Source of the DNA: Arthrobacter citreus
Lineage (GTDB): Bacteria > Bacillota > Bacilli > Bacillales > Bacillaceae_G
NCBI GenBank assembly: GCA_013200995.1
Contig: CP053688.1
Coordinates: forward strand, 2,790,001-2,854,000
DNA: 64,000 bases
Direction: 5' to 3'
In this document: in pieces, positions 4,585-26,354 of the stretch
How the letters are laid out: every line of letters starts with the position of its first letter
How positions within the stretch are numbered: position 1 is the stretch's first letter
Position numbers and translations under genes: made by a program
Notes under the pieces: generated by a model
Told to the model about the DNA's origin: nothing
The model's database searches: none
The model's input: only the letters and a program-made list of their open reading frames with translations

Positions 4585-4882
4585 TTAAATATACTTCCGA
4601 TGAATATTCTTCCCGTCATAACTAAACAAAACAGACTTACCCTCAATATTAGTCTCTAAATGAACCCCTCTACCCCACAACTGATGAATATAAAGCATTA
4701 CCTTCTCAACATACTTCACATCAAGTTCCATATTTTCATAGGAGTGCTTTAAATAAAGCTCCCCATTTTTTAAATAATCGCCCTCTTGACGCCCGCGTTT
4801 AGTTTTGCGTATTCGATTGCTTCGTTTGAGTCTAGGTTCAGTTCGCGCATGATGCGGTTGTGCCATTAACTTGCCCAGCCTT
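4585..4882 (-). pseudogene. spoVR 3' fragment with internal deletion
   Basis: Minus-strand sequence whose last about 67 codons match the C-terminus of intact SpoVR (ending [10 protein letters not shown]). Upstream of an internal deletion it matches the region encoding [18 protein letters not shown], now out of frame. The joined 93-codon frame is therefore a chimera and not a real protein. Compared with the 19.6 kb copy, about 350 bases are missing between the two parts. Homology to spoVR stops at 4882, but the next 18 bases (4883-4900) still match the sequence next to the 19.6 kb copy, so both fragments share one breakpoint and one origin. Confidence 0.9.
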
Positions 4883-5003
4883 GTTTCTTTTAAAGATCTT
4901 CTTTTTTAAGATTCTTCTATTCCTTATTCAACATAATGGCAGTTTAATTGAATTAGAAATGTTAGAATGAAGATATAATCATAATTGGTATGAGGAGAAT
5001 GAA

Positions 5004-5387
5004 ATGCTTAAAAAAATGAAAGATTGGGCGAAGAAATTAAAGAGACAAATATTTGTTCTTTACTTTGCTTGTAAAGATGAAAGAGTCCCTTGGTATGCGA
5101 AAGTATTTACAGCTTGTGTTGTAGCGTATGCATTTAGTCCGATTGATCTAATTCCTGATTTTATACCGATTTTGGGCTACTTAGATGATGTGATTCTCAT
5201 TCCGTTAGGGATAATGCTTGCATTAAAGATGATCCCAAAGAATGTAATAGCTGACTGCGAAGTGAAGGCAGAAGAAATGATGAAAAACGGTAAGCCAAAG
5301 AACTGGATTGTCGGTTCAATTATCGTATTGATCTGGGGCATAATTTTAATATGGGGTAGTTTGATTATTTATCGTTTATTGAACTAA
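5004..5387 (+). CDS. DUF1232 (YkvA-type) membrane protein
   Basis: A 127-residue protein with the DUF1232 core (PWYAKVFTACVVAYAFSPID then LIPDFIPILGYLDDV, about residues 28-70) and an added C-terminal transmembrane span (about residues 100-123). DUF1232 proteins are membrane-associated with unknown biochemical role, and one Xanthomonas member affects virulence. The ATG follows GAGGAGAATGAA at good spacing. The stop codon lies inside the left arm of a palindromic repeat (5381-5403), which probably forms the mRNA 3' hairpin. Confidence 0.8.
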   Translation: MLKKMKDWAKKLKRQIFVLYFACKDERVPWYAKVFTACVVAYAFSPIDLIPDFIPILGYLDDVILIPLGIMLALKMIPKNVIADCEVKAEEMMKNGKPKNWIVGSIIVLIWGIILIWGSLIIYRLLN

Positions 5388-5403
5388 ACGCATGCGTTAG
5401 TTG
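5381..5403. repeat. CAACTAA/TTAGTTG palindromic repeat
   Basis: GAACTAA-ACGCATGCGT-TAGTTG with a perfect 10-base centre (ACGCATGCGT) and one unpaired base in the outer arms. It overlaps the stop codon of the DUF1232 gene. Half-copies of the same arm occur nearby (for example TTCAACTAA near 5440). Confidence 0.7.
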
Positions 5404-5526
5404 TACAACAAGAGTTGCTTCGGCATTTCTTTTTTGTTCAACTAAATGGCAGTATAGTGCAATAATCATAATTAGGTTTTTTATACTTATAAATGGGAAA
5501 TTTCTCAAATAAAAAGGTGATGAAAA

Positions 5527-5694
5527 ATGATTAGTGTAATAACATTTTTTACTATATTAGGATTAATATTTTGTATTATAAAATCAATTAAAAAAGGTGT
5601 ATTATCGTTGGTTTTAATTGTCGTATTATTTGGAACAATTTTCGGTTATTTTGGTTTACCTACAATACTACACTATTTTTTCTTATTAAACTAA
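5527..5694 (+). CDS. 55-residue hydrophobic membrane protein
   Basis: A short frame, ATG 5527 to TAA 5694, encoding MISVITFFTILGLIF at the start and ending in HYFFLLN. It has two hydrophobic segments (about residues 3-18 and 25-45) separated by the basic stretch KSIKKG. An AAGGTGATG ribosome binding site precedes the ATG. The stop again overlaps a palindromic repeat, as with the neighbouring DUF1232 gene, which supports a real transcript end. No family is recognised. Confidence 0.5.
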   Translation: MISVITFFTILGLIFCIIKSIKKGVLSLVLIVVLFGTIFGYFGLPTILHYFFLLN

Positions 5695-5709
5695 CTCATG
5701 CTTTAGTTT
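5688..5709. repeat. CAACTAA/TTAGTTG palindromic repeat
   Basis: AAACTAACTCATGCTTTAGTTT, a degenerate copy of the palindrome family, overlapping the stop codon of the 55-residue ORF. Confidence 0.6.
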
Positions 5710-5786
5710 AAGAGCAATCGTAGTGGAATGTCAGTTCCTATCAATCTTTTTTAAATTAATAATGTTTTAAGGAGATATTGGGATAG

Positions 5787-6101
5787 ATGAGTATTATTTT
5801 AGAATTTATTTTAGATGTTATTGGGGATATGTTAACACCTTCTTCCTCTTCTAAGAAGTTTAAAGAGCAGCAAAATGACAGGATAAATCAGAATATCAAT
5901 TTATTATCAAATTTGCCTTGGTTTTCAACTTTATTGGAAAATGATAAAAATAAAAAAATAATTTCAAGAAACTCACGGGTTCAAGGAATGCTTAAAAATC
6001 AACCATTTGTAGACGCATTATTGGAAGATGATGAACGATGTAAAGAACTTTTTCTAAGGAAATTAGACGAAGCATCAAAAAAGCTTTTTAAATATTTTTA
6101 A
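5787..6101 (+). CDS. Hypothetical 104-residue protein
   Basis: Begins with a short hydrophobic helix (SIILEFILDVIGDML). The rest is charged: a Ser-rich linker, then helical segments ending in a Lys-rich C-terminus (KLDEASKKLFKYF). An AAGGAG motif lies 12 bases before the ATG, which is longer than ideal. No domain is recognised. It sits among other small genes and palindromic repeats in a low-density accessory patch, and another copy of the repeat follows 16 bases after the stop. Confidence 0.5.
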   Translation: MSIILEFILDVIGDMLTPSSSSKKFKEQQNDRINQNINLLSNLPWFSTLLENDKNKKIISRNSRVQGMLKNQPFVDALLEDDERCKELFLRKLDEASKKLFKYF

Positions 6102-6117
6102 TAATATAATTTAATTA

Positions 6118-6150
6118 TTATTCAACTAAACCATGTTTTAGTTAGATAAG
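6118..6150. repeat. CAACTAA/TTAGTTG palindromic repeat
   Basis: TTATTCAACTAAA-CCATG-TTTTAGTTAGATAA, again directly downstream of a gene (stop at 6101). Confidence 0.65.
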
Positions 6151-6166
6151 AATTTAAAAATAAAAT

Positions 6167-6199
6167 AAGAGAGAACTCTAGACAGGGAGTCTCTCTATA
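6167..6199. terminator. Hairpin between the repeats
   Basis: AGAGAGAACTC pairs with GGAGTCTCTCT around a short loop. It could terminate transcription from either side, but the T-runs are weak. The gap to the MFS gene (6200-6432) holds only another palindrome. Confidence 0.4.
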
Positions 6200-6288
6200 T
6201 AAATGTAACATTAATCAATGAAGATTACACAATTCAATTTATACAAATATAAAGTTAAAGTCTATTTTTTTAATCACAAACAAATTAT

Positions 6289-6316
6289 TGAACTAACGAA
6301 TGCATTAGTTGAGCAA
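6289..6316. repeat. CAACTAA/TTAGTTG palindromic repeat
   Basis: TGAACTAACGAATGCATTAGTTGAGCAA, a well preserved copy about 120 bases beyond the 3' end of the minus-strand MurNAc operon. Confidence 0.7.
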
Positions 6317-6432
6317 CATGATCAATTGTATTGCTGTTTTTTTTAGTTAAAAGAAGTTTTTTTCCAAAATGATATAATTTAACTTCATAGAAAAAGTTAC
6401 CATTTATTAAATCTGGAAACTGAAGGATAGTC

Positions 6433-7671
6433 CTAGGCAGTTACTATTTCAGTGTCGTTCTTATTTTTTGAAAATCCTTTTATATTAATCGATAAAATTG
6501 AAATAATACTCAACATCATTGCAAAGATTAAAAACCAAAATGCACCACTGTAACTACCATTAGAAGTACTAATTAAGAAGCCCATTACTGAAGGTGCAAC
6601 AACTCCTGCCATATTTCCACCAAAGTTCATTATCCCGGAAGCAATCCCTACTGTTTGATACGGGAAAATTTTTACTACCAAAACCCAAATTAGAGTAAGG
6701 TTAAAATATAACGGGAATATTGCTAATATTTGATATACGATAGATAATTTTAGTGATCCTGTATGAAACATTAAATAAAAGAATATCGTACTTAATATAC
6801 CAGCAATAACCATTGCAATCTTTTCACGACCAACTAAGAATTTATCTAAAAACCACCCACTTAAAATTTGAGCAAGTGCAGCTGCCATAAATGGAAACGA
6901 AGCATAAATTCCTGTGTCAACAAGGCTTATGTGGCGAACATTCATCAAATATGATGGTAACCAAGATGAGAACCCCCAAGAAACACATGATAATCCAAAA
7001 TCTAGAATTGCTAATTTCCAAATATCCCAATTACGAAGTGCATCTTTTGTACTTGTTCCATTGATAGAATTCTTTATACCTTTTTGCTGTACCACAGATA
7101 TTGGGTGAAAGTAAATAAAAAGGACAGCAATTAATGCGCCAACTACACCTATACCGATAAAAAGAGGTCTCCATCCTAGAGTTACCATAATCGTCGCAGC
7201 TAAAATAGGTGCTATAGTAGACGCAACTGGATTCGCAGACATTACAATCCCCTGTACTCTTCCTCTTTCTTTATAATGAATATTTTCAGCAATTGACTTA
7301 GCGGAAGATGCAGGATAGCCTCCTTGGGCAATCCCAAATATTACTCGTACTACAATTAGTGATGCAAATGACCAGACTACCCCAGTTAAAATAGTAAATA
7401 TTGACCACATAATTATTGAAAAAACTATTAATCTCTTTGAACCAATCCTGTCAGCTATCCACCCACTAGGTATTTGAATAAACGCATATCCTAAAAAAAA
7501 ACTACTCAAAATCAACCCTACTTGGGACGGATTTAATGAAAAATCTTTTGCTATTCCTGTAATGCCAAGACTTATCACCATTCGATCAAGATAATCGCAT
7601 AACCATCCCGAAAATAGCAGAGCAATCAGAATATACTTATTATTTTTATTAGAAATATAGTTTTCTTGCAT
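6433..7671 (-). CDS. MFS transporter, ACS (anion:cation symporter) type, probably amino-sugar uptake
   Basis: 412 residues with 12 predicted spans. The N-terminal signature (LDRMVISLGITGIAKDF and GYAFIQIPSGWIADRIGSKR) is that of the anion:cation symporter branch of the major facilitator superfamily, which carries sugar acids and other organic anions. It is the last gene of the operon that starts with murQ. MurNAc carries a lactyl carboxylate, so an ACS-type carrier is a plausible replacement for the MurP PTS permease that is absent here (inference). If so, the sugar would enter unphosphorylated, which fits the separate kinase encoded upstream. The substrate is not proven by sequence. A 148-base gap separates it from the dehydrogenase gene. 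Confidence 0.85.
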   Translation of the reverse strand: MQENYISNKNNKYILIALLFSGWLCDYLDRMVISLGITGIAKDFSLNPSQVGLILSSFFLGYAFIQIPSGWIADRIGSKRLIVFSIIMWSIFTILTGVVWSFASLIVVRVIFGIAQGGYPASSAKSIAENIHYKERGRVQGIVMSANPVASTIAPILAATIMVTLGWRPLFIGIGVVGALIAVLFIYFHPISVVQQKGIKNSINGTSTKDALRNWDIWKLAILDFGLSCVSWGFSSWLPSYLMNVRHISLVDTGIYASFPFMAAALAQILSGWFLDKFLVGREKIAMVIAGILSTIFFYLMFHTGSLKLSIVYQILAIFPLYFNLTLIWVLVVKIFPYQTVGIASGIMNFGGNMAGVVAPSVMGFLISTSNGSYSGAFWFLIFAMMLSIISILSINIKGFSKNKNDTEIVTA

Positions 7672-7819
7672 TTTCCCTCTCCTTTTAAGTATTTAAACTC
7701 TCAAACTATTATGAATCCGTTTGTATTTTTGCAATCATGACTACTATTTATGTATTCTTATATCCACTCCCGTAAAAACAAGGAATCATTCTACAGGAGT
7801 GAATTAACTTTATGATAGA

Positions 7820-8851
7820 TTAATATTCAACTTTTACAGCTTTTCCTGTATTAGCAGATTCTAAGATCGCAATAAGTACCAAACATGAATTTGCTGCCTC
7901 TTCTACACTCACTTGGAATGGCTTATCATCAATTAAACGATCTACAAAGCTTCTAATACTATTACTTGAGAATCCTGCCATTTTATCCTCAATAATTGGC
8001 TTAGCAAGGATATCTGGAGTGATTGTTCTTTTCTCATTGGAAATTTGTATAAGGTCATGACTTGAAGTATTGATATTAATCATTCCTTCTGAACCAAGTA
8101 CATTACATTTAAAATCAATGATTGCTGTATTACCATTAGGCGTAATCCATCCATTCTCCATTTGTACAATTGCGCCATTTTCAAATTCTAATGTAGTCTG
8201 ATACATATCAATAGTGTCTATACCTAAATTCTTTAACACACCGTCTCTCGCCACGCTGTAAACTTTATCAACTCGTGAGTTAACTAGCCAAGATATTGCA
8301 TCAAGACTATGGCTACCAAGGAACCATAAGATAGAAGAATTAGCAGACCATGCTAACATATCAGTCGCAACAAATTTATTATCATTCAGTCGAATATAAC
8401 CTGATCGAACTTCACCTATATCACCATTTTCAATTGCTCTCTTCGCTGTACTAAACGGCGGGCTCCATCGATTATGCAAGTCTACCATCGCTCGAACTTG
8501 GTTACGTTTAATTGCCTCTAACATATCAAAAATATCTTTTCGAGTAGTCGCAAATGGCTTTTCAATTAGTACATGTTTCTTAGCATTTGCACTATCAATT
8601 GTTACTTGAGCGTGTAGGTGATCAGGTGTTACGATAGCGACAAAATCACAATCACTCTTTTCTAGCATCTCTTTATGATCTGTATAAATCTCTTTTATTC
8701 CATATTTATTAGCCATTTCTTCTGCTCTAGATTTGTTTAAGTCACAAACTGCAACAATTTCTACATAAGGAATTTCACTCAAAGTTCTAGCATGAACCTC
8801 ACCTTGTTTCCCTGCTCCAATGATACTCGCTTTAATTTTTTCCATATTCAT
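7820..8851 (-). CDS. Gfo/Idh/MocA-family NAD(P)-dependent sugar dehydrogenase
   Basis: 343 residues. A Rossmann fold at the N-terminus (IIGAGKQGEVHARTL, about residues 9-23) precedes the family EKP motif (LIEKPFATTRKD, about residues 96-107) that contributes the catalytic lysine, followed by the C-terminal alpha/beta substrate domain. Family members oxidise or reduce sugars, inositols and sugar derivatives at a ring hydroxyl. Its place within the murQ operon suggests it acts on an amino sugar or an anhydro- or otherwise modified muropeptide sugar, but the exact reaction cannot be read from the sequence. The start at 8851 (ATG AAT ATG) has only a weak ribosome binding site; ATG 8845 is an alternative. 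Confidence 0.85.
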   Translation of the reverse strand: MNMEKIKASIIGAGKQGEVHARTLSEIPYVEIVAVCDLNKSRAEEMANKYGIKEIYTDHKEMLEKSDCDFVAIVTPDHLHAQVTIDSANAKKHVLIEKPFATTRKDIFDMLEAIKRNQVRAMVDLHNRWSPPFSTAKRAIENGDIGEVRSGYIRLNDNKFVATDMLAWSANSSILWFLGSHSLDAISWLVNSRVDKVYSVARDGVLKNLGIDTIDMYQTTLEFENGAIVQMENGWITPNGNTAIIDFKCNVLGSEGMININTSSHDLIQISNEKRTITPDILAKPIIEDKMAGFSSNSIRSFVDRLIDDKPFQVSVEEAANSCLVLIAILESANTGKAVKVEY

Positions 8852-8979
8852 TCATCTCTATTTGGACAAGAGATGAATACACCACCTTTCAAAAATTAGA
8901 TAAATTTATAATTTTAAAAATCAATTTTTTAACTTATGTAAAGAAAGTACTCTTTTTTATCAGTTGTTAATAAGTAACT

Positions 8980-9855
8980 TTAGTGATTATTTACATCCAA
9001 ATCTCGTTTAAGACTTCTTACTGCAATGACTTCCTTAGAACGATCTAAATATTTTTCAATATCCGCGTATTCCATACTAGCAACTCCTGAAAAAAGAATA
9101 TCGAGGATATATAATTGACCTATACGGGAACCCATAGCACTACTTCGTATAGTTGTATCAGGCGAAGAGAGGAATAGATTAATGTCAGACAATTTGCTTA
9201 GAGTATTTTCTCCAAACCTGGTTATCGAGATTACTGTAGCTCCTGTCTCTTTAGCTATATTTGCCATTTCAACAGTATCGGTTGTTTCACCTGAATATGA
9301 TATTGCAATTATTACGTCTCCATTAGAAATATTCGCAGTTGACATTCCTTGTAAATGGTAATCAGGGTAAAAAAAGGTTTTCTTATTAATTCGTAAAAAC
9401 TTTTGGAATGCATCCATGGCAACCAAACCTGATGCACCTACTCCATAGAAGGTAATAATTTTGGCTTTACATAGTGCCAAAACAGCATTTTCGATTTCAT
9501 TTATTTCTAAAACCAACTGAGTATCTTCAATTGACTGTTTGTGGTTATTTCCCACATTTCGAATAATTGATTTAATTGTGTCACCTGGTTTAATGTCAGT
9601 GTACTTATGTTCATTCTGTATTTGATTGGTAATATTCGATGCCAAATCTATACTAAACTCTCGATATCCCTTATAATTTAAACGTTTACACATTCTAATA
9701 ATTGCTGCCTTACTAGTTTTACTCTTAAGTGCCAGGTCATCTATTAACATACCTAAAACCGCTTCTGGAGAATTAAGTATATAATTGGCTACTTTCTTTT
9801 CAGATTCGGTTAAAGTATTTATAGACTCTTTTATTTTTAATAAAGTTCCTGCCAT
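8980..9855 (-). CDS. MurR/RpiR-family transcriptional regulator
   Basis: 291 residues: an N-terminal RpiR helix-turn-helix (about residues 1-77, with SKTSKAAIIRMCKRLNYKGY) and a SIS sugar-phosphate binding domain (about residues 125-255, with FYGVGASGLVAMD and AISYSGETTDTVEMA). In B. subtilis and E. coli MurR senses MurNAc-6-P and controls MurNAc catabolism. This gene sits inside the murQ operon between the kinase and the dehydrogenase, so it is most likely its local regulator with MurNAc-6-P or GlcNAc-6-P as effector (inference). A candidate operator lies upstream of murQ at 11860-11876. Confidence 0.85.
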   Translation of the reverse strand: MAGTLLKIKESINTLTESEKKVANYILNSPEAVLGMLIDDLALKSKTSKAAIIRMCKRLNYKGYREFSIDLASNITNQIQNEHKYTDIKPGDTIKSIIRNVGNNHKQSIEDTQLVLEINEIENAVLALCKAKIITFYGVGASGLVAMDAFQKFLRINKKTFFYPDYHLQGMSTANISNGDVIIAISYSGETTDTVEMANIAKETGATVISITRFGENTLSKLSDINLFLSSPDTTIRSSAMGSRIGQLYILDILFSGVASMEYADIEKYLDRSKEVIAVRSLKRDLDVNNH

Positions 9856-9889
9856 TGTTAACTTACCTTCCTAAACATTATGATAATAA

Positions 9890-10807
9890 TCAATATTCAG
9901 TTTTCTCTTTTGCTATCATTGCCGCACCCCATGCAGCATCTCTTTTCATAGGAATTACCTGCACCTTTGGATATGATTGATCAAGTAGGTGTTTAAACTC
10001 ATTTCTTATATAATCATTATGAGTTAATACGCCCCCACCTGTTGCCAGTAGGCCATCCTCTTGCCCTAAACGCTCAAGAACAGTAGTAGCAATTAAATAC
10101 AACTCTTCTGCAGTATTCTTAACGATAGAATAGGCTATTTCATCCCCGGCTGCACATCCTTCATAGGCAACCCTTGACAGACTAGCAATTTCCTTCTTAC
10201 CTATATTGCTTCTATAAATATATTGAATCAATTCATTATGGTCGCTTAGGCTCAAGCTATTAAGGAGTAGCTTTGTCATAATAGTTTGTGGTGATCTACC
10301 ATCAAAACTGCGCATTACACTGGAAATCACTTTCTTACCTATATCGTAGCCGCTACCCTCATCACCTATAATATGTCCCCATCCGCCACATCTGTGAGTT
10401 CTTCCTTTTGAATTTCTCCCAAATCCTATAGAGCCTGTACCTGCAATTATTACACTCCCTGTAGAGCAACCTACCCCTCCATAAAAAGCCGTCTCTACAT
10501 CATCTGTAACTGTTTTTTTCCCATTGAGACCAATTTCATTTAAGATTGTCTCTAGTATTATTCTTTCTTTAAACCTTCCTGCTCCAGCTGCTCCTATACA
10601 TACTGAGGCGCATTGCGATAAATTCATACCTGTCTTATCTAGTGCCCTCTGTATAAGTGTATATAAAACTTTTTTAACTTCATTTATAGGAGCCGAATGA
10701 ATATTTGACGGCCCAGCCTCACAAGTAACTAGTAGTTTATCTTGCATGTCTGTCATTACGAGACGAGTTTTGGTCCCCCCACCATCGATTCCAATAATGT
10801 ACTGCAT
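9890..10807 (-). CDS. BadF/BadG-type N-acetylhexosamine kinase (MurK/NagK-like)
   Basis: 305 residues from ATG 10807, chosen because GGAGG stands 6 bases before it and an upstream in-frame ATG at 10819 overlaps that site. The actin-like ATPase fold is clear: phosphate-1 loop GIDGGGTKTRLVMTD at the N-terminus, GTGSIGFG around residue 127, a HRCGGWGHIIGDEGSGYDIG segment and the adenosine motif GGGVLTHNDY. The BadF family includes the MurNAc/GlcNAc kinase MurK of Clostridium acetobutylicum. Its place directly after murQ fits a route in which free MurNAc, or GlcNAc, is phosphorylated in the cytoplasm at C-6. This kinase explains how the operon can work without a PTS permease. Confidence 0.85.
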   Translation of the reverse strand: MQYIIGIDGGGTKTRLVMTDMQDKLLVTCEAGPSNIHSAPINEVKKVLYTLIQRALDKTGMNLSQCASVCIGAAGAGRFKERIILETILNEIGLNGKKTVTDDVETAFYGGVGCSTGSVIIAGTGSIGFGRNSKGRTHRCGGWGHIIGDEGSGYDIGKKVISSVMRSFDGRSPQTIMTKLLLNSLSLSDHNELIQYIYRSNIGKKEIASLSRVAYEGCAAGDEIAYSIVKNTAEELYLIATTVLERLGQEDGLLATGGGVLTHNDYIRNEFKHLLDQSYPKVQVIPMKRDAAWGAAMIAKEKTEY

Positions 10808-10915
10808 AGTAGCCTCCATCTATTAATTACAAACTAAGTACATAAAAAAATAATTAAGATACTGCGATATACTAAATGCATCTATTAATTCTTAATCACA
10901 CAAAGTTCCCATTAT

Positions 10916-11836
10916 CTACCTAGGAGTTACTCTAGTCTTAAGAGCGATTGCCTTCTTAATAACTCCATCAGCTTTTAAAAGTAATTCCTCCGCTTCTTCT
11001 CTTTCAACAAGAGCTTGTACCATTACAATAGCCACCTTTGGATTGAATCCTGATTTCTCTAAATATTTTTGCGCATCACTTTCTTCCAACCCTGTAGCAT
11101 GCATAACAATGCGCACAGTGCGATCAATAAGTTTTTTATTGGTAGGCTGTAAATCAACCATTAAATTACCGTATATTTTTCCTAACTTGACCATCGTTGC
11201 TGTTGTTAGCATGTTAAGTACTAACTTTTGCGATGTACCTGATTTCATGCGAGTGGAACCCATAATTACCTCTGGTCCTACTTGTGGAGTTATTTCTATA
11301 TCCACTATTTCATTTATCTGAGATTGAATATTATTACTAATTCCAATTGTTAAGGCCCCGACTATTTTCGCTTCCTTTACAGCAGATATTACATATGGAG
11401 TTCTTCCGCTTGCCGTAATGCCTACTACCACATCTTTTTCGTTTATACTATTTTCATAAATAACTTCCTTACCTAAATCTTCACGATCTTCTGCACCTTC
11501 TACTGCAGAATGGATAGCCTCACTTCCACCTGCTATTAACCCTTGAATAAGTTCTGGATCTATTCCATATGTGGGTGGGCATTCAGAAGCGTCAAGTATT
11601 CCTAATCGTCCACTTGTCCCTGCACCTATATAAAACAGACGTCCTCCTATTTTTATTCGTTCGACAATTCCATAAACAGCTTTACTGATATTTTCTAGTT
11701 GGTCTCTAACAGCCAAGGGAACAAAAAAATCTTCTTCGTTAATCATTCTCAGAATCTCTGTTGTGCTTGCTGTGTCAATATTAATTGTTTTGTAGTTTAC
11801 CTGTTCGGTAGACAACTTTGAAAAGTTTTTATCCAC
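10916..11836 (-). CDS. murQ: N-acetylmuramic acid 6-phosphate etherase
   Basis: 306 residues, the usual MurQ length. The SIS domain shows FYIGAGTSGRLGILDASECP (about residues 69-88), with the catalytic Glu of the DASECPPTYG motif, then SGRTPYVISA, the MGSTRMKSGTSQKLVLNML block and a C-terminal helical domain. The enzyme splits the lactyl ether of MurNAc-6-P to give GlcNAc-6-P and D-lactate in the cytoplasm. It is the first gene of a five-gene minus-strand operon. The start is GTG 11836, nine bases after GGGGTG. No nagA or nagB is present in the operon, so GlcNAc-6-P must be handled by genes elsewhere. Confidence 0.95.
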   Translation of the reverse strand: MDKNFSKLSTEQVNYKTINIDTASTTEILRMINEEDFFVPLAVRDQLENISKAVYGIVERIKIGGRLFYIGAGTSGRLGILDASECPPTYGIDPELIQGLIAGGSEAIHSAVEGAEDREDLGKEVIYENSINEKDVVVGITASGRTPYVISAVKEAKIVGALTIGISNNIQSQINEIVDIEITPQVGPEVIMGSTRMKSGTSQKLVLNMLTTATMVKLGKIYGNLMVDLQPTNKKLIDRTVRIVMHATGLEESDAQKYLEKSGFNPKVAIVMVQALVEREEAEELLLKADGVIKKAIALKTRVTPR

Positions 11837-11859
11837 TTTAACACCCCAATTTAACTTTT

Positions 11860-11876
11860 ATTGTTCCGGATACAAT
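11860..11876. promoter_or_regulatory. Candidate operator upstream of murQ
   Basis: ATTGT-TCCGGAT-ACAAT inverted repeat 24 bases before the murQ start. It could be the MurR-type regulator site. No regulator site consensus was available to test it. Confidence 0.4.
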
Positions 11877-11879
11877 ACA

Positions 11880-12182
11880 ATGATAAGATTATTATTTTAA
11901 AAAATAAATTAAATAATAATTAACTATAATTAAGTGAAAATTATAGAATATGTTTAATTAAGTTTTTTTATATGTATGGCTACTCTAACTTTTAGTAAAT
12001 TTTAAAATAAATTTACTACTACTATATTTATTTGTAGAAAACTGATTATTGGCCAGCTATAAGTGCATATGTAAAGATTTTAAGTAAAGCTTTTATCGTC
12101 CTACCTAAACACTATTGTTCTATAACATTTCAAAAACAATCTTTAAAACTTACATAAAAGATTTATTCTGGACTTTTATTCT
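11880..12182. other. Gene-free region upstream of the murQ operon
   Basis: AT-rich, no ORF of note. It contains an inverted repeat at 11994-12017 (AGTAAATTT-taaaat-AAATTTACT) of unknown role. Confidence 0.4.
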
Positions 12183-12189
12183 ATATAAA

Positions 12190-12229
12190 AAAACAGCGGA
12201 CATTCTAATGTAAGAATGTCCGCTGTTAT
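12190..12229. terminator. Strong hairpin (15-bp stem) between cassettes
   Basis: AACAGCGGACATTCT and AGAATGTCCGCTGTT form a perfect stem with a 6-base loop, flanked by an A-run on the left. It could be a terminator or the end of a lost insertion sequence. It has no adjacent gene: the next is the spoVR scrap at 12400 on one side and murQ on the other. Confidence 0.6.
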
Positions 12230-12399
12230 GCTTATTCTAATTTTTTTCGGAATTGAGTACTTAATAAGAAATAGTTTATTGACGCACCTTATTATTTTAT
12301 TTTTAATATTCAAATGAACTAATAAATAATCCCGTTTCTATTTTTTAGAAGGAGAATTATTTTGACTAATTAATTTTTTGATTTTTTATTCTAAGTCTT

Positions 12400-12475: not shown

Positions 12476-12558
12476 ATGATATTATATTTTAAGCTGATAT
12501 TTATCTGATTGTTTCGTTCGAAAATAAGAGCAAACATTTTTGAAACAGTTTTTTACCA

Positions 12559-14058
<1,500 letters not shown>

Positions 14059-16716: not shown

Positions 16717-16763
16717 ATTTTTTCCCTATTCTGTTGTAAAAAGACGTATTTCCTATTAATGTT

Positions 16764-18701: not shown

Positions 18702-18885
18702 TTTTCTATCCTCCTTAATTTATGCTCTATTTGAATTGATTCATGCTACTTTATTTATTCTTCACTTGGGTCGTTCTGTCAAGGGCGAGCGGAACTCATA
18801 TACTTATGTTACAGTTCACTGTCCTTGATATTGAACTAACTACCCAATAATAAAAAAAGAGCAAATCATTCAGACCCAAGTTTTA
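18702..18885. other. Upstream region of licR
   Basis: No gene recognised. It presumably holds the licR promoter; no near-consensus boxes were picked out. Confidence 0.4.
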
Positions 18886-18914
18886 TTCAACTATCGCATT
18901 GCGTTAGTTGAGCA
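18886..18914. repeat. CAACTAA/TTAGTTG palindromic repeat
   Basis: TTCAACTATCGCATTGCGTTAGTTGAGCA, the only member of the family found outside 2.6-6.4 kb. It flanks the degraded 18994-19167 fragment. Confidence 0.7.
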
Positions 18915-18993
18915 GTGTTATATTACTAAATCTATAATTTGATTTTTAATCTTTTTCCAAATACCCATTTGAATAGATAAGACTTTAATCTGT

Positions 18994-19167
18994 TTAAAAT
19001 AGTTCTGTAACTTGATTATCCTCCCCATCATGCATATAACAAAAGTGGTCTAAGGCAATTCCCCATTCATTATATTCCAATACCATGAAGTGATCGCGTT
19101 TTGGTAAACCATCTATATGTTCAACTATTGATTCTATCTCTATTTCAACATTCGTAATTAGCCCACC
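18994..19167 (-). pseudogene. 5'-truncated gene fragment, unknown family
   Basis: A minus-strand frame of 57 codons ending in TAA, encoding an acidic protein-like tail (KRDHFMVLEYNEWGIALDHF, then CYMHDGEDNQVTELF). A TAG precedes the frame and no start codon is available before the internal Met, so it is the 3' remnant of a longer gene. The acidic, Trp/Tyr-rich composition recalls immunity-type proteins of bacilli, but I cannot assign a family. Confidence 0.35.
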
Positions 19168-19366
19168 CTATATGTGTTAGTAGTATAACAAATTTTATAT
19201 AATTAGTTTATTAACCTTGTCCTGAATCTACACTTTTCTAGAACTTATATCTTCGAATTAAATAGATAAGAGACTTCTATTTTTAAAATACGAGACTCAA
19301 ATTGTCGGGAATTTTTGCTCTCTGTACATTGGTTTAAAAAGAGTAAGGCATCGTAAAATCCATAAC

Positions 19367-19552
19367 CTAATAATCACGATAAGCCATGTTTGTTTCCACT
19401 TCTTCAATCGTTTTACGCATGGAGCGAATGCCAAATTTATTTTGAATAAAGGTTAACTTAATTAAAATAACAGGATCAATGCACGGGCGATCCACAGGAG
19501 AATACATGTCTTCCACTAATTTATAAATATATTTTAAAACAAAAAAGACTGT
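19367..19552 (-). mobile_element. IS1182-family transposase remnant
   Basis: The minus-strand translation contains YKLVEDMYSPVDRPCIDPVI, then LIKLTFIQ and RSMRKTIEEVETNMAYR, the conserved N-terminal part of IS1182-type DDE transposases. It lacks the true N-terminus and everything after the NMAYR segment (a full protein has over 400 residues). The 5' side is fused directly to a hairpin of the type found at the ends of these elements, so the element has suffered both internal and terminal deletions and is inactive. Confidence 0.85.
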
Positions 19553-19585
19553 AGACAAACTCGAATTTCATTGAGTTTGTCTACA
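19547..19585. repeat. IS-end type hairpin
   Basis: GACTGTAGACAAACTC pairs with GAGTTTGTCTACAGTC around a short loop. It abuts the transposase remnant and probably represents the surviving end or flanking terminator of the insertion sequence. Confidence 0.7.
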
Positions 19586-19589
19586 GTCT

Positions 19590-19611
19590 GAAACCACCTT
19601 AAAAAGGTGGT
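19590..19611 (-). terminator. Terminator copied with the second spoVR fragment
   Basis: ACCACCTT pairs with AAGGTGGT immediately after the spoVR-derived stop codon, as at intact spoVR and the 4.6 kb copy. Confidence 0.7.
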
Positions 19612-19612
19612 C

Positions 19613-20244
19613 TTAAATATACTTCCGATGAATATTCTTCCCATCATAACTAAACAAAACAGACTTACCTTCTATATGCGTCTCCAAATGAACACCTCTA
19701 CCCCACAACTGATGAATATAAGGCATAACCTTCTCAACATACTTCACATCAAGTTCCATATGTTCATAAGAGTGCTTCAAATAAAGTTCACCATTTTTTA
19801 AATAATCTCCTTCTTTTACAACGATGTATGGAAATCCACCATTTACCCTGCTAACAACTAACTGATCCCAAACATTTTCCCATGCTTTATCAGTGACTTT
19901 ATACTCCTTACCTTGTCACTGGAATAAATACATATCTTCACGCATGACAAGATCTTTAGTTAAGTAGTTTCGTATAAATGAGCTATCAGATTCTAACTCA
20001 CGTACTTCAAACATTTTTTCTCGACCGCTTCCAGGTTTAACACCTAACTCACGCATTTCTTTTGTTGGGTGATTGTACCGCTCTTCAATGTCTTCAAACA
20101 TTCTTAGTCCTAAATAATATGGATTAATGCTTGTTTTAGATGGTTGAACAACACCCGCGTTTAGTTTTGCGTATTCAATTGCTTCGTTTGAGTCTAGGTT
20201 CAGTTCGCGCATGATGCGGATGTGCCAATAACTTGCCCAGCCTT
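19613..20244 (-). pseudogene. Large spoVR 3' fragment (about 210 codons) with a nonsense mutation
   Basis: Matches the last about 210 codons of the intact gene at 24.9 kb over its whole length, mostly with third-position differences, from [18 protein letters not shown] to the C-terminus. The frame is open except for one TGA at 19916-19918, where intact spoVR has AGA (Arg) after MREDMYLFQ. Homology stops abruptly at 20244 in the codons before the conserved GWASYWH segment, and the next 18 bases match the flank of the 4.6 kb fragment. It has no start codon or promoter of its own and is a displaced copy of the 3' half of spoVR. Confidence 0.92.
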
Positions 20245-20309
20245 GTTTCTCTCAAAGATCTTAAATGTTCTTCTTAATTTAAGAGAAATATAGTGTAACC
20301 ATATATAAT

Positions 20310-21290
20310 TTACATTCTTACGTATTTATTTTGAAGCCCATCTTTATACTCACGTATTTCACCTTTTGCAACTAAATAACTTAAATAGGCATTAGTCTCT
20401 CCTAGTGCAATCCACTTTTCTAGTACACTTGAACCTATTGGAATTAAAGTATTTGATACTTGATAAGCACTCATCTCTCCTGTAATCTGCTCGAGTACGA
20501 AACCAATTCGTTCTTCATAATGATGTAGTAATTCGTTAATTCTCTCTTGTGCATCCATAAAAATGGGACCATGTCCTGGTAAAACTAATGAAATTTCCAT
20601 TAATTGCATCGTTTTTAATGTCTCAAGATACATACTTAATGGATTTTTATTTCCGTAGCCATGATATGAAATATAAGGAATAGTTTCTCTAGTCAAATGA
20701 TCTCCTGACAGAAGAATCTGTTCTTCACTATTATAAAAACAGATGTGCCCATCCGAATGACCAGGCATTTGTATAGCTTCAAATAGAAGCTCACCAATAG
20801 GATAAAACCTATTTGTTTCTATGGTACACACGTTGTTCGGAAATCTGTTAGTTGATGTGTTCACAGGGTGTAATTGCTTTATTAGATCATGCGGCATGCC
20901 TGCTGATAAGTAAAATGTTGAAAATGCTTCCGCTTCTAGAACATTCCGGGCGACGGCTTGTTCTTTCTCACTTAGAAAAACATCCGCTCCAGTTTGCTGT
21001 TGTAATTCTTTTACGTATTCAAAATGATCAGGGTGATGATGTGTTATCAAGATACGCTCAACATCACGATGTGGTTCAACACCGTATTTATTAAACGCAA
21101 CTTTCCAGGCAAGACGTGTTTCATTACGATTCATTGCCGTATCGATGATTGTCCACATTCCTTCTCTACGAGCTAAGTAACAATGAACATTATCATTCCA
21201 GAAAGGTAGTGGAATTGTTACTTGATAGATGCCGTATCCATTCATTTTTTCGATTCCTTCATTAATTAATTGCATAATGGAATTTTGCAC
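20310..21290 (-). CDS. Metallo-beta-lactamase-fold hydrolase
   Basis: 326 residues with the zinc-binding signature THHHPDHFEY (about residues 87-96), further metal ligands in QMPGHSDGH and LLSGDHLT, and the C-terminal LPGHGPIF motif. Enzymes of this fold hydrolyse thioesters, lactones, beta-lactams or phosphodiesters. The substrate is not evident. It is the last gene of a three-gene minus-strand operon with an MFS carrier and an alpha/beta hydrolase, suggesting stepwise breakdown of an imported ester, amide or lactone (inference). Confidence 0.88.
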   Translation of the reverse strand: MQNSIMQLINEGIEKMNGYGIYQVTIPLPFWNDNVHCYLARREGMWTIIDTAMNRNETRLAWKVAFNKYGVEPHRDVERILITHHHPDHFEYVKELQQQTGADVFLSEKEQAVARNVLEAEAFSTFYLSAGMPHDLIKQLHPVNTSTNRFPNNVCTIETNRFYPIGELLFEAIQMPGHSDGHICFYNSEEQILLSGDHLTRETIPYISYHGYGNKNPLSMYLETLKTMQLMEISLVLPGHGPIFMDAQERINELLHHYEERIGFVLEQITGEMSAYQVSNTLIPIGSSVLEKWIALGETNAYLSYLVAKGEIREYKDGLQNKYVRM

Positions 21291-21343
21291 CTCTACTTTA
21301 GCCGTTTATTTTTTTGGTATGAGGCTTTAACCTAAAATTTATT

Positions 21344-22669
21344 TCATACAATCTGATTATTTACAGCGTTTTTAACTATTTCATTGGTTTGGACTGGTTT
21401 TTCTTTTAGGAAAAGAGCACTTACTGCTGCTATAGCTGCAAGAACTGAGAAAAATATAAATACTTTAGTGAAATCAAAACTTCCACCTGTACGAACTGTT
21501 ATTAAATAACCGGCTACTAACGGGGTTACAAATGCCCCCAACTGACCACAACCATTAACCATTCCCGTTACACTACCGACAACTTCACTAGGGTATCTTT
21601 TTTGAAGTGCAGCTGTAAGAGAACCAGAGTTAAATGCTACAAAAAATCCTGAAGCCAATAGTAAAGTTAATAGCATAGGTGTATTTCCCTTACTAACAGA
21701 TCCGAGCATCCAAAGTACAGGAATACATCCAATATAAGCGATTAGAGCAATCGGCTTCATTTTGTTAAATTTATCCATCAACCAACCACCCATTAAAATA
21801 CTGATGATACTAATTATTGGAGGTAATGCTGAGACAAATCCCATTTCCTTAATATTAAAGTTGTGTTGTTGAACTAAGAAAGTGCTAAGCCAAGTTGTGA
21901 ACCCCCAAAGAATACCGATCTGACAAAACATCATCAAGCAAATCACATAGAAGGTACGATCTTTCAAGTAAATTTTGTGGTTAACTTTTTCCTTCGTAGT
22001 TACTTGTAGAGTTGCCTCTTTATTCAGATTTATAAAGTCTAATTCACTTTTACTTATTCTGCCTTTTTTATACATTTCTTCTGGTGTATCTTTAAAGAAC
22101 AACCAAAGTAGTAAAATACCAATTACACCAGGAATAGCTAATGTGAAGAATACAGGTCTCCACTGACCGTCAAATAAAGAAGCAGAGAGATTAGTTAAGA
22201 TGATAGGTACTAGTGCTAATCCAACGTAATTTGAAGTATTAAAAATTGAAAGGGCTTTACCACGTTCTGAATATGGGAACCAATTACTAATTGCTTTAGC
22301 CGAAGGTGGAAAATGATGTGCTTCTCCAAGCCCTAAACCTATTCGCAAAGCAATAAACTGGGTAAAATTTTTGACAAATCCAGTAACTACACTTACTAAA
22401 GTAAAAACAATTATGGCAACATTCATGACCTTTTTGGGTCCGAATTTATCCGCTAAAAATCCCGAAGTAACCTGACCGACTGCATACGCGAAAAAGAACG
22501 CAGAAGCGATTTGCCCAACTTGGACTGGCGTTAAATTCATATCTTTTTGTATGAATGGTAAGAAAGTTAACACAGCTACACGATCAAAGTAATTGATTAT
22601 ATATAGTAGCCAAACGATAAACAGTATAACGTATTTATATCCCCATAATTTCCTTACTGCATTTGACAT
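21344..22669 (-). CDS. MFS transporter, ACS type
   Basis: 441 residues with 12 predicted spans and the anion:cation symporter signature (IINYFDRVAVLTFLPFIQKD and GYAVGQVTSGFLADKFGPKK-like segments). It is related to, but clearly distinct from, the carrier at 6.4 kb. It probably imports an organic anion that the two neighbouring hydrolases degrade. It lies 40 bases downstream of the alpha/beta hydrolase gene and 53 bases upstream of the MBL-fold gene. Confidence 0.87.
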   Translation of the reverse strand: MSNAVRKLWGYKYVILFIVWLLYIINYFDRVAVLTFLPFIQKDMNLTPVQVGQIASAFFFAYAVGQVTSGFLADKFGPKKVMNVAIIVFTLVSVVTGFVKNFTQFIALRIGLGLGEAHHFPPSAKAISNWFPYSERGKALSIFNTSNYVGLALVPIILTNLSASLFDGQWRPVFFTLAIPGVIGILLLWLFFKDTPEEMYKKGRISKSELDFINLNKEATLQVTTKEKVNHKIYLKDRTFYVICLMMFCQIGILWGFTTWLSTFLVQQHNFNIKEMGFVSALPPIISIISILMGGWLMDKFNKMKPIALIAYIGCIPVLWMLGSVSKGNTPMLLTLLLASGFFVAFNSGSLTAALQKRYPSEVVGSVTGMVNGCGQLGAFVTPLVAGYLITVRTGGSFDFTKVFIFFSVLAAIAAVSALFLKEKPVQTNEIVKNAVNNQIV

Positions 22670-22709
22670 CTATTTTTACTCCCCTTCCTTTATTGGCTTT
22701 TCTTATTTT

Positions 22710-23546
22710 TTAATCCTTCAATAAATTCATAACCTCATTAACAATGTTGTCCCATACCTTAGAATTTGGATCAATAATTTCAAAATGTTCGACATTAGGT
22801 AACGTAATCATCTTAACTTGGTCACCTGCTTTTTCGGCAAGTTCTTTATATAGGACACTTAATTTTACTGGAACATTTACATCTAAATCACCATGAATCA
22901 ATACTTGGGGAACTTTTAACGGAAGCAATTGAACTGGTGAAACCTCAGCATATCTTTCAGGTACTTCAAATGGTGTACCCCCTACATAGTCAGTTACTGG
23001 GTTATCAATTTTCATATTTTTTACTATTCTTTGTTTGTAATTAATCAGGTTATTCATAAGTTCTAAGTCAATTATGCCACCTAAACTGACTACTCCTTTA
23101 AGTAATAGGGGGGCACTGGATGTTTTTAATATACTATCTTCTTGTAGACGATAACGGCCCGCTAACCAGAAAGCAAGCTGGCCTCCAGCTGAATGGCCCA
23201 TTGCAACCACTTTTGTTAAATCCAAATCATATTGTTCGCCTATTGTTTCTATAAAGTCTGTTGCATTGGCAACATCATTTAAAGTACCAGGATAAGCACC
23301 TCCAATGTTACCTACCCTTCTATATTCAATATTCCAAGTTGCTATTCCACGTTTAGTAAGATCTTCTGCAACGGCATCCATTAAATCTACCGCAAACATC
23401 GATTTCCAAAATCCTCCATGAATAACGACAGCTACAGGATGTGGTCCTGTACCTTCAGGAATACGTAATTCTCCGTATTGCCACTGATCATCACCATAAT
23501 TCAACCGTATCTTTTTTGTGTTTCCAATTTCACTATCAACTCTCAT
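22710..23546 (-). CDS. Alpha/beta hydrolase (BD-FAE/kynurenine formamidase-like)
   Basis: 278 residues with the esterase oxyanion motif VIHGGFWKS (about residues 41-49), nucleophile Ser in MGHSAGGQLAFW (about residue 118), and the catalytic Asp and His in HGDLDVNVPV and PNVEHFEI. The HGGFW motif and size resemble arylformamidases and feruloyl-type esterases that cleave small esters or formamides. First gene of the operon, divergent from the TrmB-type regulator. Confidence 0.87.
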   Translation of the reverse strand: MRVDSEIGNTKKIRLNYGDDQWQYGELRIPEGTGPHPVAVVIHGGFWKSMFAVDLMDAVAEDLTKRGIATWNIEYRRVGNIGGAYPGTLNDVANATDFIETIGEQYDLDLTKVVAMGHSAGGQLAFWLAGRYRLQEDSILKTSSAPLLLKGVVSLGGIIDLELMNNLINYKQRIVKNMKIDNPVTDYVGGTPFEVPERYAEVSPVQLLPLKVPQVLIHGDLDVNVPVKLSVLYKELAEKAGDQVKMITLPNVEHFEIIDPNSKVWDNIVNEVMNLLKD

Positions 23547-23655
23547 GTAAACGCCTCCATTTTTCTGGGTACCTAAGGATTAACTTAAATTATTACACTC
23601 ACATCTCTCCTCCTTTTTCCATTTGTAATACAAATTAAAAACAGCTTTAAAAATA

Positions 23656-23677
23656 AGTAGTATTATATAATACTACT
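23656..23677. promoter_or_regulatory. Perfect 22-bp palindrome, candidate TrmB-type operator 1
   Basis: AGTAGTATTAT followed by its exact inverse, in the divergent region between the hydrolase operon and the regulator, about 110 bases from the hydrolase start. A second, degenerate version lies exactly 200 bases away. Confidence 0.6.
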
Positions 23678-23855
23678 CTTATTAAATGTATTATAGTTAT
23701 TTTTCAGAATATTATCAATATTAATTTTAAAAATAGAAGTATTTTTCGGTACCACTATATACCAGACACATCTACTCATTCATGTAGCATTCACACAAAG
23801 ATTGAAAACTTAAAAATTATGAATTGCTGTATAGCTTGATTATTTTGTTCAATCT

Positions 23856-23877
23856 AGTAGTATTTATATATACTCAT
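23856..23877. promoter_or_regulatory. Degenerate palindrome, candidate operator 2
   Basis: AGTAGTATTTATATATACTCAT, the same half-site as the 23656 palindrome with an imperfect second arm, 47 bases before the regulator start. Confidence 0.5.
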
Positions 23878-23924
23878 CTACAATTAACAACAAATAAATA
23901 TAATAATTGTAAAAGGAGGTACAT

Positions 23925-24716
23925 ATGGTTGAACTTTTAAAAAAAATAGGATTATCTGACCTTGAAGCACGTTGCTATTTGGCATTACATGAAGAGCCTG
24001 GAATATCAGGTTATGAAGTAGCTAAAAGAGTATCAGTTTCACGTACTAATGTTTATTCTGCTTTGAGATCATTAACGGACAAGGGTGCTTGTCGATGCAT
24101 AGAAGGAGATCCAGCTAGATACGATGCTGTTCCCATAGAACAATTAACAAAACATTTACAAACGGAATTTGAACAAGTAACAAAAGTATTAGTAAATCAA
24201 TTAAAGTCTCCAACTATAATTGCTCCTTCTTTTTATAATTGGCAAGGAGATAAGCAACTTAGTACAACTATTCGTCGAATAATTGCCAACGCAAAAGATT
24301 TCATTGTAATAGACATATGGTCAGAAGATTTACATTGGGTTGAAGATGACTTACTTGATGCTGAAAATAGAGGTGTCAACGTGATACTTATTACAATTGG
24401 AGAATGTCAAACATCACTTAAGAACATTTTTGTCCATATTCGAAGTGAAGATTGGAGCATTTCTAGTTTAAGAAATTTTTCTATTTTATGCGATTCAAAA
24501 AAAGCTTTAATCGGTGGTTTTGGAAATTCAACAAAACTCACTGCCTTAGAAACTGACCATCCATCAGTAGTTGGAATGTTAAAAACTGCTTTTTACCATG
24601 ATCTAATCATGCAACATATTGAAAAAGATTTTCAAACTGAACTTCTGGAGAGATATGGTGAAAAATACAAAAAAATATTAGATTTTTATGCTTTTGAAAA
24701 AGGTTGGAATATCTAA
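23925..24716 (+). CDS. TrmB-family transcriptional regulator
   Basis: 263 residues. The N-terminal winged helix (LSDLEARCYLALHEEPGISG, GYEVAKRVSVSRTNVYSALRSL, about residues 9-50) is typical of TrmB regulators, followed by a C-terminal sensing domain with PLD-like features (IRRIIANAKDFIVIDIWSED). TrmB proteins bind sugars or other metabolites and repress or activate adjacent transport operons. It is transcribed divergently from the hydrolase/MFS cassette and is probably its regulator, acting through two related palindromes in the 378-base gap. AAAGGAGGT precedes the ATG. Confidence 0.87.
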   Translation: MVELLKKIGLSDLEARCYLALHEEPGISGYEVAKRVSVSRTNVYSALRSLTDKGACRCIEGDPARYDAVPIEQLTKHLQTEFEQVTKVLVNQLKSPTIIAPSFYNWQGDKQLSTTIRRIIANAKDFIVIDIWSEDLHWVEDDLLDAENRGVNVILITIGECQTSLKNIFVHIRSEDWSISSLRNFSILCDSKKALIGGFGNSTKLTALETDHPSVVGMLKTAFYHDLIMQHIEKDFQTELLERYGEKYKKILDFYAFEKGWNI

Positions 24717-24752
24717 GTTAATGTTCTTTCCTTTAATTAATCAATCATATAG

Positions 24753-24784
24753 AAAAGGTTGCTTCCGCAACCTTTTCTTTTTTT
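24753..24784 (+). terminator. Terminator of the TrmB-type gene
   Basis: AAAAGGTTGC and GCAACCTTTT form a 10-bp stem with a TTCC loop, followed by CTTTTTTTT. Confidence 0.9.
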
Positions 24785-24883
24785 CCCATCCAATCGGATT
24801 CTGCAGTTATCTGGCTAAAGGATCGCCAACTTTCTAAAAGTGCTGAGCGGTTTATTGAGGCACTACATACAGAACCAGCATGA
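24785..24883 (+). pseudogene. LysR-family regulator C-terminal fragment (possibly citR)
   Basis: A plus-strand frame of 32 codons ending in TGA encodes SAVIWLKDRQLSKSAERFIE followed by ALHTEPA, typical of the extreme C-terminus of LysR-type regulators. No other part of the gene is present; the fragment begins right at the TrmB-type gene's terminator. In B. subtilis the LysR regulator gene citR lies close to spoVR, so this may be the remnant of citR removed when the cassettes were inserted (inference). Confidence 0.7.
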
Positions 24884-24908
24884 CTTCGGCTTTGTATTTG
24901 ATGAAAAA

Positions 24909-24933
24909 AAATACCACCTCTAAGAGGTGGTAT
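24909..24933 (-). terminator. Terminator of spoVR
   Basis: ATACCACCTCT and AGAGGTGGTAT flank a 3-base loop just after the spoVR stop, with a T-run on the minus strand. Related CCACCT hairpins follow two of the displaced spoVR fragments. Confidence 0.88.
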
Positions 24934-26354
24934 TATATATACTTCCGATGAATATTCTTCCCATCATAACTAAACAACACAGACTTACCTTCTATATTCG
25001 TCTCTAAATGAACCCCTCTACCCCACAACTGATGAATATAAGGCACTACCTTCTCCACATACTTCACATCTAATTCCATATTTTCATAGGAATGCTTCAA
25101 ATAAAGCTCACCATTTTTTAAATAATCTCCTTCTTGTACAACGATATATGGAAATCCTCCATTTACCCTGCTAACTACAAGTTGGTCTCTAACATTTTCC
25201 CATGCCTTATCAGTGACTTTATATTCCTTACCTTGTCTCTGGAATAAATACATATCTTCACGCATGACAAGATCTTTAGTTAAGTAGTTTCGTATAAATG
25301 AGCTATCAGATTCTAACTCACGGACTTCAAACATTTTTTCTCGACCGCTTCCAGGTTTAACACCTAACTCACGCATTTCTTTTGTTGGGTGATTGTATCG
25401 CTCTTCGATGTCTTCAAACATTCTTAGTCCTAAATAATATGGATTAATGCTTGTTTTAGATGGTTGAACAACACCCGCGTTTAGTTTTGCGTATTCAATT
25501 GCTTCATTTGAATCAAGATTTAGTTCACGCATAATTCTTATATGCCAATAACTTGCCCAGCCTTCATTCATAATTTTCGTCTCAAGCTGTGGCCAGAAAT
25601 ACAGCATTTCCTCCCGTAACATTGTCAAAATGTCACGTTGCCATTCTTCTAGTTCTCTTGAGTATTCTTCAATAAATAAGAGGATATCTTTTTCTGGTTG
25701 AGGTGGGAATTGTTTACGTTTAATAGGGATAAGATTTGAGTCATTTTTCTTTTCTTTACTGTGATCCATATTCCAAAGATCATCATATGGTGTAACTCTT
25801 TTCTTCTCTTTAAGTGGAAAATCATTTTCTAAATCATATGCCAGTTTTGGTCTCATTAATGATGGATCAATATGTTCTTGAATAGAGAGAACTGCATCTA
25901 GGAAATTTTCTACTTCTTGTTTTCCGTAAATATGTTCATAGTGCTTAATTCGTTCAGCAGTAGCTGCCATACTTTCAACCATATCTCTCTTTGTATTTGA
26001 GAAACGTATGTTATTTTTAAAGAAGTCACAATGGGCTAAAACGTGTGCAACGATTAATTTATTTTGAACGAGAGAGTTTGTATCTAATAAAAACGCGTAA
26101 CATGGGTCAGAGTTAATAACCAATTCGTAAATTTTACTTAATCCCAAATCGTAATGAAGCTTCATCTTATAAAACTGTTTTCCGAAGCTCCAGTGGGAGA
26201 ATCTTGTAGGCATACCATATGCGCCGAAAGTATAAATGATATCTGCAGGACAGATTTCATAGCGCATTGGGTAAAAATCTAGCCCAAATCCTCTCGCAAT
26301 TTCTGTTATTTCATCGATTGCATATTCCAAAGCCCTATAATCACTTGCCTTCAT
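24933..26354 (-). CDS. spoVR: Stage V sporulation protein R
   Basis: 473 residues from ATG 26354 (AGGAGGA stands 7 bases upstream; the in-frame GTG at 26357 overlaps the spacing). The length matches SpoVR of other bacilli. Conserved segments include [20 protein letters not shown] near the N-terminus and [18 protein letters not shown] around residue 265. In B. subtilis SpoVR is made under SigE control and is needed for normal spore cortex formation; its biochemical activity is not known. This is the intact member of a set of four related sequences in the window. The others are 3'-end fragments in the same orientation at 4.6, 12.4 and 19.6 kb. Confidence 0.95.

Follow-up and report, generated by a model that had tools for sequence, protein, structure and literature searches.

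Introduction

Site-specific integration into mother-cell sporulation genes has been described for vrin, skin, SPbeta in spsM, and vfbin, according to the available parts of two reports (PMC4191935, PMC6957869). Among these elements, vrin splits spoVR and was found in Geobacillus thermoglucosidasius (available part of PMC4191935), and an insertion in spoVR has also been attributed to B. weihenstephanensis (available part of PMC6957869). A spoVR-splitting element is thus already known, and the remark of an earlier note on the DNA studied here, that it knew of no integration hot spot described at spoVR, has to be corrected. In this study, we analyzed the spoVR locus in a stretch of 64,000 nucleotides (nt) from a probable Gottfriedia genome deposited as Arthrobacter citreus (contig CP053688.1, positions 2,790,001 to 2,854,000; hereafter the window). 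In the window, spoVR is whole and is followed by displaced copies of its own 3' end with gene cassettes between them. Our results indicate that this array probably arose by repeated site-specific integration at the 3' region of spoVR, with each unit bringing a replacement end, and that homologous recombination reshuffled the products afterwards. In the literature covered, which left out most subscription journals, we found neither displaced spoVR ends nor such arrays reported.

Results

Displaced spoVR 3' ends in the window

The host genome of the window has 5.47 Mb in three contigs. Four copies of spoVR were present in the window, all on the minus strand: the intact gene (24933..26354, 473 codons) and, downstream of it, three fragments of its 3' end. 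Alignment to the intact gene bore out what the earlier note had said of their number and strand, of an internal deletion in the fragment at 4882 and of one nonsense codon in the fragment ending at 20244, whereas its exact limits had to be redrawn and the terminators, which it had omitted, added. Displaced end 1 (19593..20244, minus strand) comprised 652 nt, terminator included, and aligned without gaps to the intact gene at 93.1% identity, with one TGA in the reading frame. Displaced end 3 (4559..4882, minus strand), also with its terminator, consisted of 4559-4788 (90.0%) and 4789-4882 (84.0%), the intervening 334 nt having been deleted. Displaced end 2 was a remnant of 76 nt (12404..12479, minus strand; 90.8%) that had lost sequence at both ends, and a full-length end was found after the same gene block in the related genome G007. 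A chance origin of these fragments was excluded because of their length and identity. The ends at 4882 and 20244 started at exactly the same base, which corresponds to window position 25564, nt 791 of the gene, in codon 264. Their likeness extended about 18 nt outside spoVR (4789-4900 against 20151-20262, 94.6%), into an arm motif that adjoined the core of end 3 at 4883..4904 and that of end 1 at 20245..20266, both on the minus strand. From these boundaries and from the split genes of other genera described below, the core of a proposed attachment site was placed at nt 791-806 of the intact gene (AAGGCTGGGCAAGTTA, 25549..25564, minus strand).

Fragments across Gottfriedia

A protein search of 13 Gottfriedia genomes, followed by a recount at the DNA level in the loci retrieved, revealed 42 spoVR fragments in 12 of them and none in G008; this count takes both ends of one contig as two and excludes six weak protein matches (E 4e-8 to 2e-4). 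The earlier note had regarded relatives free of both fragments and cassettes as evidence that would overturn its proposal, and nearly all relatives proved to carry them. The fragments were confined to the 3' part of the gene: 0 of 42 reached the 5' part, and the partial protein matches all began at residue 244 or later. Twenty-two of the 42 started within 6 nt of nt 791, most of these preceded by a common short motif, and 21 ended just past the terminator. With up to three mismatches, the arm motif AAAGAAGATCTTTGAGAGAAAC had 14 matches in the 13 genomes, every one at a spoVR fragment. The reversed motif gave 26 matches in the same genomes, so that AAAGAAGATCTTTGAGAGAAAC is informative by its position and not by its rarity; looser versions stood at several of the 23 fragment starts inspected. 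The exact junction pattern was found in 11 stretches of the GTDB collection, all in five records (Gottfriedia luciferensis CH01, G. acidiceleris 1-17, Bacillus sp. FJAT-25509, AFS088145, and AFS001701). Upstream of spoVR, yhdB, a phosphohexomutase gene and others recurred among the Gottfriedia maps, and the gene blocks downstream varied by genome and were set apart by the 3' ends.

Two other origins of the fragments were considered at this point. Tandem duplication with loss of the 5' part would leave decayed copies without any mobile mechanism, and the fragments are indeed on the same strand as spoVR and mostly downstream of it, with four of them retaining 22-46 nt upstream of the core. Such decay would hardly produce a common start base joined to a motif foreign to spoVR, or place foreign genes between the copies, let alone cassettes more alike between species than the core genes are, and we consider this origin scarcely credible. 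Capture and spread of a spoVR end by an insertion sequence or a small inverted-repeat element is slightly better placed and still very improbable. A transposase remnant (DUF772, 19367-19558) adjoins displaced end 1 inside the neighboring cassette, but it is missing at the same cassette in G007. A repeat resembling CTGCCATTATGTTGAATAAGG, which had 25 matches in 0.54 Mb of array loci and 0 in the reversed control, occurs on either side of some fragments, one copy inverted relative to the other, but many fragments lack it, and it is also seen at other places in the arrays; moreover, arm and core are common to the displaced ends of other genera.

Several further spoVR sequences were observed in these genomes. 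The host genome contained a second full-length spoVR (G000:C1:1491952-1493355, on loci L002 and L068) with 74% protein identity, and an additional 3' fragment about 1.2 Mb away. Similar second copies occurred in other Gottfriedia, and in G007 and G010 (81-82%) one of them adjoined displaced 3' ends. Several fragments had repeats like CTGCCATTATGTTGAATAAGG at their tail or in their flank (window 4922, L043 8875, and L046 7406, among others). The contig L056 (8944 bases), which encodes a reverse transcriptase and a subtilase, had the spoVR repeat at both ends with a 20-bp overlap and could be a circle or a tandem. The four fragments that begin upstream of the core (L037 5737-6339; L055, L067, and L073) keep sequence of the 5' side in place of the arm, and those of G000, G009, and G011 have common neighbor genes; a displaced end in L197 without an arm resembled them.

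The same site in other genera

An order-wide sample of 159 genomes was examined, of which 153 had a spoVR match; 17 were followed up, and G070 (a paralogue) and G120 (a frameshift) were dropped. In 12 of the 159 genomes, from eight families, an intact or almost intact spoVR was accompanied by a displaced 3' end; three of the 12 were Gottfriedia. In five of the 159, spoVR was split near codon 264-270, with the halves on two contigs in G046. Searches within genera added two more split genes, one in G179, where a 13-kb element lies above three displaced ends, and one in G187, where a 45-kb insert lies above further displaced ends. All seven split genes, which belong to genera other than Gottfriedia, had the same core as the starts of the displaced ends, and their right junctions consisted of arm, core, and 3' end, the layout that was also seen at the displaced ends of other genera. 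The left junctions carried a similar arm in inverted orientation; in six of the seven, this arm matched at 8-10 of 10 bases, the arm in G046 being ambiguous by script. A large serine recombinase was encoded by six of the seven splitting elements, and the six proteins belong to one family (52-95% mutual identity), the element of G167 having been read for 16.5 of about 41 kb; G166 had a second serine recombinase, and G179 had a second and a third.

A divergence step at the core of intact spoVR

A crossover inside the repeat should leave the resident sequence of the intact gene in place beside the core; the reverse was observed. Among eight Gottfriedia genomes (G000, G012, and three outgroups set aside), the mean identity of intact spoVR was 96.0% in the 5' part and 92.1% in the 3' part. 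The 5' part was the more alike in all 28 pairs, by 3.9 points on average, and in 42 of 45 pairs of ten genomes; the 200 nt before the core were more alike than the 200 nt after it in 24 of the 28. In the genus g49, the same held for 22 of 23 pairs, with a mean difference of 6.4 points. Pairs were used when the 5' part was at least 88% identical, which left 23 of 136 in g49 and 16 of 58 in the controls, which came from genera whose sampled genomes each had a single spoVR match. The 16 control pairs differed by 0.35 points between the two parts and by 1.5 points across the core, with a dip of at least 5 points after the core in 4 of 16. In the eight Gottfriedia genomes, the largest step in third-position divergence was located at nt 802-805 (shuffle p 2e-4), the profile rising from 0.10-0.17 before the core to 0.35 beside it and falling to 0.13 about 200 nt further on, and comparisons with the outgroups showed no peak at the core. 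The genomes G013 and G016 were identical over nt 1-794, had 23 of their 24 differences in nt 795-888 and only one in the following 528 nt; the blocks behind the stop codon differed between them, and the displaced end and what comes after it were common to both. The comparison of relatives for presence or absence of cassettes, which the earlier note had proposed, thus yielded swapped cassettes in this pair, but no clean empty site. Such a pattern would result if a 3' end was gained at the core and homologous recombination, with a crossover point that varied, later removed it.

Movement and content of the cassettes

Some of the cassettes that separate the copies have passed from one species to another. 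Cassette 1 of the window (20267..24906) was found by Pfam to encode a TrmB-type regulator, an alpha/beta hydrolase, a major facilitator superfamily (MFS) transporter, and a metallo-beta-lactamase-fold protein, and the block also occurred in G007, G011, and G012; it followed intact spoVR directly in the window genome and G011 and was located between fragments in G007 and G012. Between the window and G007, its four genes were 94.6-98.3% identical, compared with 90.4% for the core genes near spoVR. The tract of high similarity ran from the last 50-100 nt or so of the left 3' end to the right core and then dropped to 86-90%. Cassette 2 (12480..19592, minus strand) is the lic phosphotransferase system (PTS) locus with a GH1 glycosidase and a PRD regulator, and five lic genes were 96.4-99.4% identical to those of G007, where the block stood directly after intact spoVR and not, as in the window, one step further down. 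Another common block was 97.9-98.8% identical between G007 and G012, whose core genes were 90.5% identical. The lic block appeared to offer a clean before-and-after pair between the window and G007, but the candidate was rejected as the cassette agreed and the 3' end did not. Mantel tests between gene blocks gave no significant pair among eight genomes, and with ten genomes a correlation was seen for some blocks inside the 5' part only.

Cassette 3 (4905..12403) contains the operon that the earlier note had labeled as N-acetylmuramic acid (MurNAc) operon, of which the MFS and Gfo/Idh/MocA genes were scanned, and a DUF1232 gene. The earlier description of the cassettes as catabolic is too narrow for the arrays elsewhere. 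Besides catabolic genes such as those of PTS, the cargo observed in arrays included a Rieske dioxygenase together with a permease, a reverse transcriptase, a subtilase, an immunoglobulin-repeat protein, CorA, AAA ATPases, a weak match to ParE, the defence candidate PDC-S30, and transporters. The PDC-S30 candidate of PADLOC (E 1.8e-96) was the gene behind spoVR in G116 (L100 2131-3000). Apart from the array, the window contained a cyclic di-AMP riboswitch (ydaO/yuaA leader, RF00379) at 49819-49960 on the minus strand.

Searches for a carrier

The exact junction pattern had no match in IMG/VR, and among phages and plasmids the SpoVR-like places were only distant and the relatives of the splitting-element recombinase few and distant. 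Two single-protein scans of viral contigs returned none, and an alignment scan returned 106 relatives, of which 80 were kept, none with a part of spoVR or the spoVR core. Tyrosine recombinases (PF00589) had no match in the array loci.

Discussion

Repeated integration in the 3' part of the gene, each unit bringing a replacement end, as the earlier note had proposed, is the best-supported reading of the locus because of the fixed 5' boundary, the attR-like layout, the recombinase-bearing elements that split spoVR at the same site, the exchange of cassettes between species, and the divergence step. Its support is partial, in that the agent and the reaction in Gottfriedia are deduced. The codons of spoVR near 264 would serve as attB and be recognized by a large serine recombinase from the same family as the enzymes of the splitting elements in other Bacillales. 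The units in Gottfriedia would be recombinase-free cassettes in which a copy of the final 210 codons and of a terminator adjoins the site. A circle of arm, 3' end, and cargo would recombine at the core of the intact gene and restore a whole gene in frame from the old 5' part and the incoming 3' part, and the former 3' end would come to lie beyond the cassette, behind the arm of the element, as in attR. Repeated rounds would build the array, from which homologous recombination between the 658-bp repeats would later remove cassettes and 3' ends or reshuffle them. The recombinase would be provided in trans by a splitting element, and imprecise excision is one way in which the circle could have first acquired its 3' end.

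A number of results weigh against this explanation. The cassettes lack a recombinase, with no match to PF00589 or PF00239 inside those of the window, and the family of the splitting elements was not found in the 13 Gottfriedia genomes, in which the best matches reached 26-30% identity; for these two reasons, the reaction in this genus is an inferred one. The cassettes also lack the right half of a normal attP, and the reaction (arm+B' with B+B') is therefore not the textbook one. The 3' ends do not track the adjoining cassettes. Of the 42 fragments, 20 start off the core, most of them truncated, and the four (in G000, G001, G009, and G011) that start upstream of it do not fit the explanation. 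Not every block is closer than the core genes: C44, C12, and C50 were 69.6-86.8% identical between G003 and G005, whose core genes were 95.9% identical, and C14-C17, C25, C26, C43, and others were at or under the core-gene baseline. The divergence climbs again, to 0.25, at nt 1113-1266, and the step in g49 was also present in 17 of 18 pairs of genomes currently without displaced ends, which past gain and loss of cassettes would explain without being proved by it. Finally, the arms of 12 displaced ends from the three genera that also have a splitting element were scored: four matched the arm of the same genus best, four were tied, three fit the arm of another genus better, and one had no arm. 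The scoring establishes a common arm type, but not that the element of the same genus made each array; an initial impression of strong agreement within genera proved weak against all seven arms, and our confidence was slightly lowered.

Several of these points would be expected if homologous recombination had acted alone, that is, if one ancestral capture of a spoVR end had been followed by RecA-dependent crossover anywhere in the 658-bp repeats, the start and the motif being simply inherited. Mosaic 3' ends unlinked from their cassettes and the failure to find the recombinase family in the 13 genomes are in line with this, as are the flanks that recur past the terminator and the contig with the repeat at both ends, whose 20-bp overlap is compatible with a circle or a tandem. 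However, the divergence of the intact genes peaks directly beside the core, and this counts against pure crossover because a crossover inside the repeat would keep the resident sequence there. The same start and related arms also occur in several families and coincide there with serine-recombinase elements. Recombination of this kind, which the earlier note had named as the alternative, evidently takes part, as the 3' ends and the adjoining cassettes now differ in history, but it is unlikely to be the sole cause. The dating of the copies by pairwise identity that had been suggested was dropped as unreliable, because the nearest neighbors of the reshuffled fragments track neither genome nor cassette.

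If integration with a replacement end is correct, a conserved sporulation gene can stay whole and yet remain a long-term hot spot for accessory genes, with a readable record of their gain and loss, and splitting elements such as vrin are connected with a wider gene traffic (displaced ends in 12 and split genes in 5 of 159 genomes); new serine-recombinase sites are also gained. More tentatively, and with the balance somewhat against it, spoVR could be an integron-like platform of spore formers, in which recombinase-free cassettes with a full replacement end are gained at a serine-recombinase core, are mobilized by splitting elements that pass through and act in trans, and disappear by homologous recombination, the patches beside the core recording past cycles.

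The split spoVR genes found here resemble the vrin class, for which spoVR is a known target (available part of PMC4191935), and the displaced ends begin near codon 264, at the core of our seven split genes, the comparison of sites having been made with these seven genes. Unlike vrin, the cassettes of the window encode no serine recombinase and bring a replacement 3' end, and the spoVR of the window is not split. The gin element in gerE of Bacillus cereus is of non-phage type with several serine recombinases, in which the elements of G179, with three, and of G166, with at least two, resemble it, but there gerE is split, and the available part of its report mentions no array of displaced ends (PMC5595907). 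That report, in the same part, also mentions the staphylococcal cassette chromosome (PMC5595907). In an integron cassette array IntI would be expected, and the array loci gave no PF00589 match that could represent it; attC sites were not searched for. The staphylococcal cassette chromosome, with its ccr genes, is built of serine-recombinase cassettes that accumulate in the 3' part of the conserved gene rlmH, some of them lacking a recombinase, and it replaces only a few bases of the rlmH end. Here, by comparison, the target is spoVR, the window cassettes have no serine recombinase, and about 630 coding bases are replaced. The rhs/contact-dependent inhibition (CDI) loci and the immunity arrays of type VI secretion systems are alike in that earlier replacements can be read from displaced 3' ends lying behind an intact gene (available parts of PMC3150448 and PMC5361080). 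In those loci, the new end is itself the changing trait, whereas at spoVR the end of the protein is conserved and it is the cargo that changes.

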